Shown one piece after another: positions 12,033 through 27,568 of a stretch of 64,000 nt of DNA. Numbering within the stretch: the stretch's first letter is position 1; every line of letters begins with the position of its first letter. The translations under genes were made by a program, and so were the position numbers. The notes beneath the pieces are model-generated. The model was not told the DNA's origin and did not search any database. It worked only from the letters and a program-made list of their open reading frames with translations. The stretch comes from Planctomycetes bacterium syqfu. GTDB taxonomy: Bacteria; Planctomycetota; Phycisphaerae; Phycisphaerales; Phycisphaeraceae. The DNA is taken from positions 1,488,001-1,552,000 of the forward strand of contig CP087563.1 in NCBI GenBank assembly GCA_020974905.1. The letters run 5' to 3'.

Positions 12033-15000
12033 ATGTTCGATTTTCACCGTTTGTCGCTCAAGCTCTGCTTGTTGCTGTTTCTTCTTTCAATCACACCAGG
12101 TACGACTTGCTGGGCACTCACCGGGGCAGCCATCCCCGATAATGAGCAACTGCAGGAGACTGTAACATTTGAGCCGCTGCCGATGGCCGAGAATGTGCAC
12201 GTGGTGGACCTGAGTAACAAAATGCCCCCCATCGGTTACCAGACCATGAACGATTGCACCGCCTGGGCACTGGCACGCGTCAAGAGTTATCACGAAGTAT
12301 TGGACCAGGGATGGAAGCCGGATACGCCCAACCATATTTTTTCACCACGATTCATTTACAACCAGATCAACCGTGGCAAAGACAAAGGTTCGAGCCCGAT
12401 CCTGGCTGCCAAGCTGCTTTACGATGTCGGTGCGGCAACACTGCAAACCTGCCCGTATATCCCAAAGGATTTTCTGACCCCGCCAACCGAGTTGGCCATG
12501 GGAGAAGCAAAGCAGTACAAGATTCGTGATATTGCGATTCTCAAGAACATCAAACAGATTCACCTTGCCCTGGAACAGAACGAACCGGTGATCATCGGGG
12601 CGCGCGTCACGCCTGCATTCTTCTCGGGAAACTTCGATATTTATGATGCCAAACGACACGCCAAAAGCATGAAAGAACGTGACGAAAGCCAACCCCACGC
12701 CAAGCATGCCATGGTGATCGTGGGGTTTGATGATGAGAAAAAAGCGTTTCTCATCGCCAACTCATGGAGCAAGCACTGGGGCCGACACGGCTACTGCTGG
12801 GTGAGTTACGATGTCATGGAAAACATCGATACCGCCCAAAGCAGCGAATCGTTTCTGTTCCTTGCCATGGTGATGTTTGACGTTCAACAGAATGTCCATG
12901 AAACGCCGGAGGAACAACCGCGTGTCAAGAATGATCGCATGGTTCGCTGGGGTTATGAACATGCAGGTTACAATGTCGAAAACAAGAAGCACAATTACAG
13001 GTACTACCTTCAACTTCGTGGCTCAGTCAAACAACTGGCTCCAGTGGCAAAAGTCCAATGGAACGTCCCCACCAGCAATGGTAATATCCAGTTAACCAGT
13101 GAGAATCCCAAGCAATATTTTCGAGTCTGGTCCTCAACACAATCTGCTTTTGCCAACGCCACCGCATTGGTCACCTTGCGTAACGGGCAAAAACACACGC
13201 AAAAGATCGCTCTGACTTTTTCACCCCCCACGGCCAGAGAACGTGATCTGAAACTCATCTACAACGATATTTTCAGTGGCAAGAACACCAACAACGTCGA
13301 CGTCTGGCATGTGCTCCCACATATTCAGGGAAACGAAACGGATATCAGCGAACTGGCAAGCGTTACCTATTCTCTGGATGCTCCCGCAGGTGCCTATTCA
13401 CCAAGAACATTTGAAGCGGATCGCTGGCCATTCAGCTTCCAAGGCACACTCTTTACTGGCAAACCATATCCAGTCAAAGCCCTGCTCCAATACAAAGATG
13501 GCAGTCAAGCCACATTGCGTGTTGAAGTTGATAAGTTCAATACCAAAGCCTTTTACGAACCACGCATTGAGTTTGAACACAGAGCGATCGGCCCTGATCA
13601 ACCAGGCTATGCCTATGCTGTCTGGATGAACATGCCGGGGATGGATCAGACCAAGGTTGATTACGTGCAATGGGAACTCGATGGCTCACAAAACTTCCGT
13701 CAAAGCAAAGAAAGCTATGGCACATTTTTCAAGCCCAACATGCTCACCGGCTATGCAACACATGAATTTCGGGTTAAAGGAACGATCCACTACTACCCAG
13801 AGTACAAACGCCAAGCCGTCACACGTGAAGCCTGGATCACCCTGCCAGACGATGCGAAATATCCCAACGTCGATCGCATCGGCATCGTCAGTTACGATCA
13901 ATACGCCGGTAGAAACGCGAGAAATGAACCCACATGGCTCGTGATTAACCGCCTGATTGGTGATCCTAAATCCATCGCAATTATCAAGTCCGTTAAACAA
14001 TCCTATCTCGACGCATCAGGTAAAACCCATGAACTGAATCTCGACTACAAAGCCTATGCTGATCACCTTGCCTGGCAGGGTAATATCCACACACCCAGCA
14101 CTAAGCTCGACATCAAAACCACCGTCACCTTCGAAGATGGGCATGTCACCGAACTATCGAATCAAATCCAAGCCAAAGCAAAAATCATCGACGACGTATA
14201 TCTGTCAACAAAACGATGGCAAGCATTTAAACGAGTTGATGGTGACTATACCGATGTCATCGCAGGTGATTGGCAGGCACAATTCCATGGGACCGGACGT
14301 ATCACATCCATGGAGAAAGTGGCATGGGTCTATGATTGCTTCGATCATCAAACCGGCGGATATCAACATGTCCAGCGCGATGTCGGCCCGGTTCAAATGA
14401 TCCTCAATCGGCAACGCCGTCAGATTACGCCCCAAACATACTTGAACTTTGGGGCTCGTGATCAATCCAAACTCAGCTCCCGAGCCTATTACTATGACGG
14501 GCAGATGGAACTATTCTCCCAAAAACTCTCAGCGAAAGAACAAGTCACAGACTTCAAGCCCGAAGATGGACGTATCGTTGTCACAGAGTATTTTCACGGC
14601 CCGACGCTAAATGAAAAGAACACTGTCAGCAACGCCTTCATCTCGCGGTTTGAACTCAATGGTTCTCCTGAATTTCTACAACGTGTCACACAATGGGACC
14701 TACAGATTCAGTATGACACCGGCAGCAAAGGTAAGCTGCGTACCTTCGAACCCGGGAAAACATTCAAAGTCTATTTCAACGAACCTTGCACCTATATCAG
14801 CACCATCCATTTCAAAGACGAGAGTACGAAAGTCACAGAACATTCGCTGACCTGCCTGGCGGAGCGACATCATGATTTATCAATCAAATCCGATTCAGGC
14901 ATGCTTTATCTTGCCGGTCCGTCGCGCATGATCAATGAAATCAAACACGTAACATTCCACATCACCGATCTGATTACAAATAAAATCAGTACGCATAACG

Positions 15001-15719
15001 CAAAATCATACCTGTACCATGGCCCACAATTCGGGATCACACAAACATCCAACTCCCCCTTGGACATTGCTGCGGATATCACATTCAAGAATGGTCAGAC
15101 CCGACATATTCAAAGTCACTACACGCCGTATCAACCGACTTGGGAACAAACAGCGACTGTGGCATTGGACTATTGGGGAACCTACGAAAACAAACCACAC
15201 TGGCTCTCAAGCTTTGCCATGTCACTGCCGTTTGAAAAAGCGAATGTCGTTACAACTTCAAGTTTCAATCGCGCAGGATCAATGGATTCTCCGATTTTCC
15301 AGATCTTGCAGGTCGTCCCATCCGTCACTGACCCAACGGTGTATATGGAGATGAACCCGATCAAGGATTGGCGAAAATTTGTAATCCCCGTCCCCAATGT
15401 CCCACAACAGCTTGATACGTTCCAACTCATCGTCGAACAGACACACGAAGGTCAAAACGGTTTACCCAATGAATGGACCGCCAGACTTCATGCCCCATGG
15501 GCAATGCTCAACAATGTTAAAAGAGTCGGCTACGCGTTTTACAGCGGAAGCGACCGGCGGGTCTATTGGACTGATCAGCGATTTTCACTGGATGCCAGAC
15601 ACTTCCCCGCTTATTATTTTGGTAAGAAACTCGATAAGGTCATTACAAAATTTCATGTCGGTGATCAACTGCAAACCTTGTCCATCGACCTGCTCACTGA
15701 CAATCCAAACGGACAGTAA
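12033..15719 (+). CDS. Secreted papain-fold (C1-like) protein with C-terminal beta-rich repeats
   Basis: A 1228-residue exported protein. It has a Sec signal peptide (LCLLLFLLSITPGTTCWA), then a C1-like peptidase domain at about residues 50-275 with Q70, C75 (NDCTAWA), H225 (KHAMVIVGFDD) and N243 (IANSWSKHWGRHGYCWVSYD), so the catalytic set looks complete. From about 285 to the end run seven or eight beta-rich units of about 110 residues. One of the clearest reads VTYSLD...PFSFQG...YPVKALLQYKDGS, resembling prokaryotic YEATS (pYEATS) domains; that identity is an inference from pattern only. The MMPL exporter starts 21 bases downstream. The 11796-12032 gap before it is AT-rich, with a palindromic AACAATTGTT at about 11888. 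Confidence 0.78.
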   Translation: MFDFHRLSLKLCLLLFLLSITPGTTCWALTGAAIPDNEQLQETVTFEPLPMAENVHVVDLSNKMPPIGYQTMNDCTAWALARVKSYHEVLDQGWKPDTPNHIFSPRFIYNQINRGKDKGSSPILAAKLLYDVGAATLQTCPYIPKDFLTPPTELAMGEAKQYKIRDIAILKNIKQIHLALEQNEPVIIGARVTPAFFSGNFDIYDAKRHAKSMKERDESQPHAKHAMVIVGFDDEKKAFLIANSWSKHWGRHGYCWVSYDVMENIDTAQSSESFLFLAMVMFDVQQNVHETPEEQPRVKNDRMVRWGYEHAGYNVENKKHNYRYYLQLRGSVKQLAPVAKVQWNVPTSNGNIQLTSENPKQYFRVWSSTQSAFANATALVTLRNGQKHTQKIALTFSPPTARERDLKLIYNDIFSGKNTNNVDVWHVLPHIQGNETDISELASVTYSLDAPAGAYSPRTFEADRWPFSFQGTLFTGKPYPVKALLQYKDGSQATLRVEVDKFNTKAFYEPRIEFEHRAIGPDQPGYAYAVWMNMPGMDQTKVDYVQWELDGSQNFRQSKESYGTFFKPNMLTGYATHEFRVKGTIHYYPEYKRQAVTREAWITLPDDAKYPNVDRIGIVSYDQYAGRNARNEPTWLVINRLIGDPKSIAIIKSVKQSYLDASGKTHELNLDYKAYADHLAWQGNIHTPSTKLDIKTTVTFEDGHVTELSNQIQAKAKIIDDVYLSTKRWQAFKRVDGDYTDVIAGDWQAQFHGTGRITSMEKVAWVYDCFDHQTGGYQHVQRDVGPVQMILNRQRRQITPQTYLNFGARDQSKLSSRAYYYDGQMELFSQKLSAKEQVTDFKPEDGRIVVTEYFHGPTLNEKNTVSNAFISRFELNGSPEFLQRVTQWDLQIQYDTGSKGKLRTFEPGKTFKVYFNEPCTYISTIHFKDESTKVTEHSLTCLAERHHDLSIKSDSGMLYLAGPSRMINEIKHVTFHITDLITNKISTHNAKSYLYHGPQFGITQTSNSPLDIAADITFKNGQTRHIQSHYTPYQPTWEQTATVALDYWGTYENKPHWLSSFAMSLPFEKANVVTTSSFNRAGSMDSPIFQILQVVPSVTDPTVYMEMNPIKDWRKFVIPVPNVPQQLDTFQLIVEQTHEGQNGLPNEWTARLHAPWAMLNNVKRVGYAFYSGSDRRVYWTDQRFSLDARHFPAYYFGKKLDKVITKFHVGDQLQTLSIDLLTDNPNGQ

Positions 15720-25131: not shown

Positions 25132-25830
25132 ATGCCGACCAAACCCCTCATCGGAATCATGCTCGACAATGTCGATGACTCGACTGCGAGTAATAAATAC
25201 GTCACAGCCATGACCTATAGCAAACGGGTGACCGAAGCTGGTGGCCTGCCGGTGCATTTGCCCCAGGAAGTGTCATTGGTCGGAGATTATGCTCAGCGGT
25301 GTGACGGCTTTATTTTCACGGGTGGTAACGACCCGGACACCCGGCCGTTTGGTGAGGAATTGCATCCCAAGGCGCGTCTGATTGCCCAGGAGCGTCAAGC
25401 GTTTGAAATAGCCCTGCTGGATGTTTTGGCCAAGGATTATCCGAACAAGACGGTGCTTGGTGTGTGTCTGGGGATGCAGATGATGGCTTTGCATGCTGGC
25501 GGGAAACTCGAACAGTACATGCCCGATTCCATGGAACACCCTGAACTGCATCAGGCGGATAACCTGCATGGGATTGATGTGGTCGCATCCTGTCAATGGC
25601 TTGAACAGATGCTCTGTGATGAGCCGATGGTCTGCTCATATCACCGGCAATCGGTGTTGGATAGTGGAACCCTGCGCGTGGTGGCCAAGTCACCGGACGG
25701 TGTGATCGAAGCGATTGACGATCCAACTCGCAGGTTTTATCTGGGCCTGCAATGGCATCCCGAACGCGTAGCCATCAGTCGGAGTTTTTGGCAGACTTTC
25801 GTTGCTGCCTGTCAGCCAGATGCACCATGA
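25132..25830 (+). CDS. Class I glutamine-amidotransferase-like hydrolase (peptidase C26, PuuD-like)
   Basis: Cytoplasmic hydrolase of the gamma-glutamyl-GABA hydrolase group, 232 residues. Seen: ASNKYVTAMTYSKRVTEAGGLPVHLP, FTGGNDPDTRPFGEE, the nucleophile elbow VLGVCLGMQMM, SYHRQSV and GLQWHPER carrying the catalytic His. The start is ATG 25132; the frame runs back to 25084 through the inverted repeat. The 3' end overlaps lspA by 56 bases on the opposite strand. The substrate could be a gamma-glutamyl compound, but a tetrahydrofolate-type hydrolase is not excluded. Confidence 0.87.
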   Translation: MPTKPLIGIMLDNVDDSTASNKYVTAMTYSKRVTEAGGLPVHLPQEVSLVGDYAQRCDGFIFTGGNDPDTRPFGEELHPKARLIAQERQAFEIALLDVLAKDYPNKTVLGVCLGMQMMALHAGGKLEQYMPDSMEHPELHQADNLHGIDVVASCQWLEQMLCDEPMVCSYHRQSVLDSGTLRVVAKSPDGVIEAIDDPTRRFYLGLQWHPERVAISRSFWQTFVAACQPDAP

Positions 25831-26443
25831 GCATCAACATCAACACACCGACAATCAAGGCAGCATCGGCAATGTTAAACAGCCAGGGGTACAGCAGTGT
25901 GCTGCCGTATTTGCCTGGCCACTGCCAACCGAATGGCAAATGCACATCAGGAAACAGCCAGAACATATCACGGACCGCGTTGTAAACCATGCGGTCGTAC
26001 ATGTTGCCCAGCGCCCCTGCCAGGATCAACGCATAGCAAATCTGGATGGCGTAGGCTCTGCGCGGAGCACGCCAAAACAGGAAGCAGATAAATGCGGTGG
26101 CAATGATACTGACGCAGACGAAAAACCACTGGGCACCTTTGCCGATCCCGAAGATCGCACCGGTGTTGAGCGTCAGGCGAAGCGATAGAACGTAAGGCAC
26201 CACCCCCATCGCCTGATGGTCGGGGATGTGGTAAGGCAAGTTACTCCCGCCACGATCGAGCACTACGGGAACCCCTGCGACATGTTCAAAGGACCAGTAT
26301 TTCATCACCAAGTCTGAACCGAGAACCAGAACCAACGTGCTGATGAAAATGACAAGTGGCACCAGGGGTCTGGTGCGCACTGCCTGTAATTTGGGTTGGG
26401 GATCAGACTCGGGCCGATCAGGTTGGGTCGGAGACGTGGTCAC
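25775..26443 (-). CDS. lspA: Lipoprotein signal peptidase (signal peptidase II)
   Basis: Inner-membrane aspartyl protease that cleaves prolipoproteins at the lipobox. The catalytic pair is D150 in LAGALGNMYDR and D193 in FNIADAALIVG, with NTGAIFGIGKG upstream. Length 222 exceeds the usual roughly 160: there is a cytosolic N-terminal extension rich in Pro and polar residues (1-28) and an insertion before the second helix (VVLDRGGSNLPYHIPDHQ). The lipoprotein at 3995 would be a substrate. It lies 45 bases downstream of the DksA-like gene on the same strand; the dksA-lspA order is seen in other bacteria. Confidence 0.93.
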   Translation of the reverse strand: MTTSPTQPDRPESDPQPKLQAVRTRPLVPLVIFISTLVLVLGSDLVMKYWSFEHVAGVPVVLDRGGSNLPYHIPDHQAMGVVPYVLSLRLTLNTGAIFGIGKGAQWFFVCVSIIATAFICFLFWRAPRRAYAIQICYALILAGALGNMYDRMVYNAVRDMFWLFPDVHLPFGWQWPGKYGSTLLYPWLFNIADAALIVGVLMLMLMVHLADRQQRKSAKNSD

Positions 26444-26488: not shown

Positions 26489-27301
26489 TTACTTGTCCAG
26501 AAGGCCCTGGCGATCGAGTTCACGAGCCACTTCGATGGAATACTGTGCCCAGGGCTTGGCTTCGAGGCGATCACGATTGATGGGCTTGCCGGTCATGACG
26601 CAGATGCCATAGGTCTTATCCTCGATGCGTTGGAGGGCACGATTGACGCGGTTAAGCATCAGGCGTTCAGACTCCATCAGACCGAGGTTGAATTCCTGTT
26701 CGAAGTTGTCGGTGCCGGTGTCAGCCATGTGTTCATAGGAGACGCCTTCGCCTGCAGACTTGACGTCTTCAGCAAGCTGGGCGAAGTCACCGAGAATCTC
26801 AGCACGCTTTTCGATGAGCAACTGCTTGAAGTAGTTCAGATCCTTGCGCCCCAGTCCGGACTTGATCTTCTTGAGCTGGGCTTCGGTCAGTGGCTTCTCA
26901 GGCAACTGGATACGGGTGGCACTGCTGCCACCGCGTTGCAGACGCATCCGCAGCTTGGCGACACGCTCGGAAACGGCACTGCCATTGGAGCGAGAGACCA
27001 TCTTCTTGGGACCGGTGCTGCCGTTCTTGGTCGCGTCCACCGCATCGGACTTGGCGGTACCGTTCTTTTTGGAAGTGGTTTTCTTCTTGGTTGCCGGCGC
27101 CTTGGTCACAGTCTTTTTGGTCACCTTCTTGGAAGTGGTCTTCTTGGTGACCTTTTTAGACGTGGATTTCTTGGCAGTTGACTTCTTGGTGACTTTCTTG
27201 GTCACGGGTTTCTTGGCAGTGGTTTTCTTGGTGGTCTTCTTGACCACCTTCTTGGTGCTTGCCTTCTTGGTACCCGACTTTTTCTGGGTTTTCTTCGCCA
27301 C
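26489..27301 (-). CDS. DksA/TraR-like protein with histone-like lysine-rich N-terminus and degenerate zinc finger
   Basis: Two parts, 270 residues. Residues 3 to about 85 are a basic low-complexity tail built from KKxT/KKVTKKT units, like histone H1 tails. Residues about 150-270 are DksA-like: coiled coil (YFKQLLIEKRAEILGDFAQL), then YEHMADTGTDNFEQEFNLGLMESERLMLNRVNRAL and TYGICVMTGKPINRDRLEAKPWA. Where the family has a four-Cys finger, only C234 remains; the partners are T237, S255 and V258. Zinc binding is therefore unlikely. The domain may still bind RNA polymerase, and the tail suggests nucleic-acid binding (inference). It is followed by lspA. Confidence 0.85.
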   Translation of the reverse strand: MAKKTQKKSGTKKASTKKVVKKTTKKTTAKKPVTKKVTKKSTAKKSTSKKVTKKTTSKKVTKKTVTKAPATKKKTTSKKNGTAKSDAVDATKNGSTGPKKMVSRSNGSAVSERVAKLRMRLQRGGSSATRIQLPEKPLTEAQLKKIKSGLGRKDLNYFKQLLIEKRAEILGDFAQLAEDVKSAGEGVSYEHMADTGTDNFEQEFNLGLMESERLMLNRVNRALQRIEDKTYGICVMTGKPINRDRLEAKPWAQYSIEVARELDRQGLLDK

Positions 27302-27568
27302 TGAATTGGACTCCGTATTGGCCGTAATGTCTTCCCACGGCTTATTTGGTCAAACGAAGGAGGCGACTGAAACGGATGTTCGCCAGCCTGAGGATTGGTA
27401 GCCCGGTAGTGTACATATCAAACGCCGATGGATCAAGTTGATTGGCTGTTATCGGCTGTGATTCTGTCACAATTTTTTGAGCGCAGCAGTCCTGCCAGAC
27501 ACTTTTGGCGCCTGATATAACAACAACTTATAACTTTTTAAACTATCTGTTCAGCCAACCGGACAGGC

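Follow-up and report, generated by a model that had tools for sequence, protein, structure and literature searches.

A Planctomycete TraR/DksA-Family Protein with a Histone H1-Like Tail and Replaced Zinc Ligands

Introduction

DksA is known mainly as a partner of the alarmone ppGpp. What might a protein of this kind do in a bacterium whose genome yields no match to a RelA/SpoT-type synthetase, when the protein has also exchanged most of its zinc ligands and begins with a long lysine-rich tail? This question is raised by a gene on the minus strand of a 64-kb stretch of planctomycete DNA (hereafter the window, meaning the whole stretch that was analyzed). Our preferred answer, to which we give about an even chance of being correct, is that the protein is a secondary-channel regulator that operates without zinc or ppGpp and is tethered through its tail to DNA or another polyanion. 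We infer that it would bind RNA polymerase, act independently of ppGpp, and contact DNA through the tail.

Results and Discussion

Organization of the Gene and Its Surroundings

The coding region and the parts of its predicted product are arranged as follows.

26489..27301, minus strand: coding sequence of a TraR/DksA-family protein, 270 aa, GTG start (open reading frame list and Pfam)
27311..27314, minus strand: GGAG Shine–Dalgarno-like site, 9 nt 5′ of the GTG
27062..27301, minus strand: Lys/Thr-rich H1-like tail, residues 1–80 (composition, dN/dS, and a model without secondary structure)
26849..27061, minus strand: linker, residues 81–151, with predicted helices at 109–123 and 140–145
26621..26848, minus strand: coiled-coil hairpin, helices 152–185 and 195–227 (model and alignment)
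Residues 191–198, minus strand: hairpin tip HMADTGTD, in which D194 corresponds to E. coli D74 and G196 to A76 (alignment)
26528..26620, minus strand: zinc-ribbon-like domain, residues 228–258 (Pfam, alignment, and model)

The GGAG element and the start “GTG GCN AAG AAA” are common to all five relatives checked (L033, L034, L036, L039, and L041). The net charge is +41 for residues 1–140 and −1 for the remainder of the protein.

Relatives were sampled as the best 80 of 568 confirmed, all in named genome contigs, whose labels are mostly Phycisphaerae, Phycisphaeraceae, Phycisphaerales, Sedimentisphaerales, or just Planctomycetota. Twelve further loci from the window’s class, order, or family were also considered, as were 97 loci from elsewhere in the phylum (one locus each, drawn from 161 genomes with a match). 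Immediately downstream of the gene lies the following feature.

25775..26443, minus strand: lspA (signal peptidase II), Pfam Peptidase_A8 8.3e-29, 45 nt downstream on the same strand

A profile built from motif matches finds lspA downstream of the gene and in the same orientation for 56 of the best 80 of 568 relatives and for 60 of the 97 loci outside the class. Because lspA recurs in this location, the place of the dksA-like gene is widely conserved. B. subtilis YlyA is a polymerase-binding relative that adjoins lspA. The other scanned neighbors are a leuD-like gene, a gene for a HEAT-repeat protein, a glutamine-amidotransferase-like gene, and a gene for a PLP enzyme. Farther away in the window, a 1228-aa open reading frame on the plus strand (12033..15719) carries a papain-family cysteine protease domain. 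The same genome encodes a GreA/GreB-type factor and a second TraR/DksA-like open reading frame (L001, contig position 1722046–1722153) of about 98 aa with four Cys residues, which seems too short to form the full coiled coil.

Domain and Fold Place the Protein in the TraR/DksA Family

The Pfam model zf-dskA_traR (PF01258) matches residues 230–262 with a score of 30.9 bits, above its cut-off of 24.9, and a genome-wide search with PF01258 scores the same protein at 34.5 bits. The Pfam DksA_N model reaches 21.3 bits, under its cut-off of 27, and the NCBIfam DksA equivalog models TIGR02420 and NF033459, which align to residues 152–260, likewise miss their cut-offs (62.7 vs. 115.5 and 60.5 vs. 105, respectively). 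Four PDB sequence matches were obtained at E ≤ 1, and every one is of the DksA type: C. trachomatis 6ptg (1.3e-15), P. aeruginosa 4ijj (6.2e-8), E. coli 1tjl (1.4e-5), and A. tumefaciens 2kq9 (8.1e-5).

A search with the modeled core gave a similar result. Foldseek ranked 4ijj, 7khi, 1tjl, 6ptg, and 5vsw at the top, with a TM-score to 4ijj of 0.82 by target. VIA-align returned Z values of 13.6 for 4ijj, 13.1 for 1tjl, 12.2 for both 7khi and 5vsw, and 11.6 for 6ptg, where values below about 13 may reflect an arrangement common among helical bundles; the top unrelated coiled coil scored 10.2. Taken by itself, a helical hairpin fold is modest evidence; here the sequence agrees with the fold. Domain and fold computations together support membership in the TraR/DksA family, in line with the DksA-like label of the initial annotation.

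Per ten-residue block, pLDDT values are 88–98 for the folded C-terminal part of the model, including 91–98 for the coiled-coil hairpin outside its tip and 95–97 for residues 221–260, and 70–74 at the tip (residues 181–200). No secondary structure is predicted for residues 1–108, where pLDDT is 44–63 (49–63 for residues 1–80).

In DksA, D74 and A76 at the coiled-coil tip are important for function. Of the best 80 of 568 relatives, 78 show H/D/G/D at positions 191, 194, 196, and 198, and G196 is invariant across an alignment of 61 rows. However, the place of A76 is occupied by Gly in the window protein and in 80/80 of these best 80 of 568, and we count this against our preferred reading.

Zinc Ligands Are Replaced while the Domain Fold Is Retained

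At the four zinc-ligand places only C234 is a cysteine, and T237, S255, and V258 stand at the other three, exactly the replacements initially proposed. The spacing of these residues equals that of the four DksA cysteines in the PDB alignments; the fourth place was matched to E. coli by ungapped extension, the E. coli row stopping one residue short. The description of this region as a lost zinc finger holds for the ligands but not for the fold, as the globular domain (residues 221–260) is confidently modeled despite their absence.

The same condition is widespread nearby. A single ligand Cys is present in 42 of the best 80 of 568 relatives and two are present in the other 38; no member has three or four. 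The first Cys is kept in 80/80 of this sample, and the second, where present (38/80), always stands at the third place. The replacing residues in these best 80 of 568 are mostly T, S, Y, V, or A, and patterns such as C-T-C-Y, C-T-C-V, and C-T-S-V are found. Seven of the 12 further loci of the window’s class, order, or family have one ligand Cys and five have two; class loci L113–L141 were left out of the ligand counts. These sequence comparisons support ligand loss as a general trait of the window’s close relatives.

Elsewhere in the phylum, the 97 loci divide into 74 with four Cys residues (L152 being scored as such by eye), six that retain three, and 17 that have at most two. At least seven changes of zinc state are needed on a tree of 117 rows from which three-Cys rows are excluded, a soft count because many forks of the tree are unsupported. 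Zinc-ligand loss is spread over several families, and in family f27 four-Cys and one-Cys members occur within one supported clade. Two loci, L168 and L187 (families f49 and f61), have the ligand set C-C-C-H, and in both a long insertion separates the Cys pairs.

The Basic Tail Evolves as Protein but Is Not Essential to the Family

Residues 1–80 comprise 34 K, 20 T, 8 V, 7 S, and 6 A, in keeping with the H1-like tail of about 80 residues that had been described earlier. When all stop-to-stop frames of at least 60 aa in the window are compared, this tail contains the most lysine-rich 40-residue stretch (18/40 vs. 10/40 for the next). Relative to L033, which is 97% identical, the tail has 17 synonymous and 5 non-synonymous differences, and dN/dS is 0.08 for the tail and 0.03 for the core. 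The corresponding values against L034 are 0.12 and 0.05, with dS above 1, and against L035 synonymous sites are saturated for both tail and core. Because the tail is the most lysine-rich stretch of the window and evolves in a protein-like manner, it is not a chance feature. Computation thus supports the tail as a protein feature under purifying selection, whose order and length vary freely.

Using a threshold of 25% Lys within some 40-residue stretch, a tail was scored in 57 of the best 80 of 568 relatives, in nine of the 12 further class loci, and in 26 of the 97 loci outside the class, so it is common to most close relatives. Several relatives begin instead with a short basic segment of some 27 residues, and because 23 of the best 80 of 568 fall under the threshold, the family does not depend on the tail. 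Its state changes at least 20 times on a tree of 124 rows. The Pfam HC2 model (PF07382) scores the tail at 18.7 bits, under its cut-off of 40, and no PF07382 match at E 0.001 points to an Hc2-type histone elsewhere in the genome.

A simple story in which the tail was gained jointly with the loss of zinc was rejected, given that both states occur apart. Outside the class, a tail is found in 16 of 71 four-Cys loci, nine of 19 loci with two or fewer Cys residues, and one of seven others, a split that uses in-register ligand labels and may misread loci whose Cys pairs are separated by an insertion. Four in-register Cys residues with no tail is the commonest state there (55/97), from which we conclude that tail and zinc loss are separable rather than one invention. 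The initial annotation had regarded orthologues of exactly this type as evidence against its reading; none occurs among the best 80 of 568 relatives or the 12 class loci, but they do predominate elsewhere in the phylum. On supported branches, which are 22 of the 120 inner branches, only three independent pairs bear on an association between tail and zinc state, too few to judge it.

Family f6 of the class has two DksA paralogues (L225 and L226 in one genome; L229 and L230; L223 and L010; L224 and L016). One paralogue, exemplified by the 291-aa L225, has a basic N-terminal tail together with an acidic C-terminal tail rich in Asp and Glu. The other, exemplified by L010 and L016, has the acidic C-terminal tail and Leu in the second ligand place, with the long basic tail absent.

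ppGpp Synthetases Are Rare and the Polymerase Docking Surface Is Kept

No RelA_SpoT domain was detected in the window’s genome, a single contig of 7.38 Mb at approximately 96% completeness, by a profile search that was positive in 11 of 14 control genomes. The domain is present in seven of 150 genomes of the class, none of these carriers being among the 24 genomes of the window’s order, and in 15 of 199 genomes of the phylum. The class carriers are G261, G285, G215, G259, G242, G295, and G281, and six of the seven have the domain in open frames of 198–371 aa, which would suit small alarmone synthetases. An excerpt of an earlier study (PMC3153485) reports that PVC bacteria are without RSH enzymes. 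Our survey agrees with this report, and the minority of genomes with the domain are exceptions. A DksA relative is present in 144 of the 150 genomes of the class.

According to excerpted text of PMC7676912, the K98A and R129A variants of E. coli DksA retain polymerase binding but do not support ppGpp at site 2, and R91, K139, and L95 are also named as ppGpp contacts. At the places of R91, K98, R129, and K139 (the last assigned by ungapped extension), the window protein has S211, R218, K249, and A259, such that two are lost and two are basic. Across the best 80 of 568 relatives, Glu takes the K98 place in 72/80, Lys the R129 place in 47/80, and Ala the K139 place in 64/80. No protein among the best 80 of 568 (0/80) or the loci outside the class (0/97) combines basic residues at the K98, R129, and K139 places, and basic residues at two ppGpp places, as in the window protein, occur in 5/80 of the former. 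Because R218 and K249 are basic, the case for lost ppGpp binding is weaker for the window protein than for its relatives.

The beta-prime subunit of the genome (L235) matches solved bacterial beta-prime chains. Residues E677, R678, and N680 are identical between the genome and the top-matching solved chain, from which the numbering is taken (matched range 573–704, the same as for E. coli chains). E677 matters for DksA action. The excerpt of PMC7676912 names N680 as a ppGpp contact beside DksA. Computation on these sequences supports a conserved docking surface on beta-prime.

A Possible Mechanism and Its Alternatives

We propose that the C-terminal half of the protein forms a DksA coiled coil and globular domain whose core, judging from the model and the relatives, would be held together by packing rather than by a zinc ion. 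The coiled coil would enter the secondary channel of RNA polymerase, where D194 could act near the active site. Given the fold, the conserved tip, and the beta-prime docking residues, the protein may shorten the lifetime of promoter complexes as DksA does. Its activity would be set by protein amount or by another signal instead of the alarmone; such ppGpp-independent control is suggested by the absence of a detected RelA/SpoT-type synthetase in the genome and by the changed ppGpp-contact places in the family. The disordered basic tail, on the evidence of its composition and selection, would bind DNA or another polyanion non-specifically, and this may enrich the protein locally around the nucleoid and hence near transcribing polymerase.

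Other roles for the tail must be weighed. It might serve as an anchor on RNA, on ribosomes, or on polyphosphate granules, in the way considered for the KPAA tails of AlgP and PhaF. Composition alone cannot distinguish one polyanion from another, residues 1–140 are strongly positive, and the lysine-rich disordered tail of AlgP is reported to matter for the spacing of polyphosphate granules (PMC9239181, in excerpt). However, the tail studied here is fused to a domain of the RNA-polymerase type, which makes DNA the nearest polyanion, and no granule protein is among the scanned neighbors; we regard such an anchor as unlikely. The tail might also be a low-complexity expansion that is tolerated and has no specific role. 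Its highly variable length and exact sequence, the relatives with a basic start of only some 27 residues, and the many changes of state on the 124-row tree would all fit this interpretation. We nevertheless find it improbable in light of the low dN/dS of the tail against both L033 and L034, even if the latter value comes with dS above 1.

The core invites similar questions. If the protein had left RNA polymerase to become solely nucleoid-associated, the DksA core would be a leftover scaffold, and the Gly at the A76 place, the three absent zinc ligands, and the missed DksA equivalog cut-offs could be read in this manner. A scaffold of this kind is hard to reconcile with the stronger conservation of the core (dN/dS 0.03, vs. 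0.08 in the tail) and with an H-D-G-D tip kept in nearly all of the best 80 of 568 relatives, and zinc-free P. aeruginosa DksA2 is reported to be functional (PMC9213440, in excerpt). We therefore see little chance that this interpretation is correct. Still less credible to us is that zinc remains bound, either through C234 and other side chains or between two molecules. The universal first Cys and the frequent second Cys in the best 80 of 568 would permit this, but the replacing residues (T, S, Y, V, and A) are unusual zinc ligands, and the same excerpt describes DksA2, with C, T, C, and A at these places, as not coordinating zinc.

Returning to the preferred reading of a tethered secondary-channel regulator, the protein would be a natural case in which a predicted polymerase secondary-channel factor is joined to a nucleoid-type tail, and the class makes a role for DksA without ppGpp testable. 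We also speculate, with considerable doubt, that DksA control has been rewired in planctomycetes lacking ppGpp, such that the H1-like tail has taken over as the input from zinc/thiol and alarmone signals, which would have been lost. If this were true, the amount of regulator arriving at the polymerase channel would be set by the condition of the nucleoid, whether its DNA occupancy, its compaction, or the modification of tail lysines.

Comparison with Known Systems

E. coli DksA (1tjl and 7khi) and the window protein are alike in fold, in the spacing of the ligand places, and in the tip Asp (D74/D194). They differ in that E. coli DksA has four Cys residues, A76, and the set R91/K98/R129/K139, and has no tail. 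C. trachomatis DksA (6ptg), the top PDB sequence match, has C, S, T, and S at the ligand places, although its 132-aa chain has no lysine-rich tail, unlike the window protein. This chlamydial protein does not complement E. coli, according to an excerpt of PMC10995303.

The tails of chlamydial Hc2, AlgP, and PhaF are lysine-rich and of low complexity, as is the tail described here, whose units are of the KKxT type rather than the KPAA type of AlgP. To our knowledge, none of these H1-like tails is fused to a polymerase factor. Zinc-free DksA and the H1-like tail are each known separately, and no report of the two in combination was found in the openly licensed literature searched.

The top fold match to the window protein is P. 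aeruginosa DksA2 (4ijj), whose ligand places are close to the patterns seen in the relatives of the window protein. An excerpt of PMC9213440 describes DksA2 as a paralogue with two Cys residues that is expressed under zinc starvation and can replace DksA1. Its solved chain of 136 aa has no lysine-rich tail, in contrast to the window protein. With DksA2 and C. trachomatis DksA as examples, loss of the finger has known counterparts. The zinc-poor form is a paralogue for zinc starvation in P. aeruginosa, whereas it is the general form in the window’s class.
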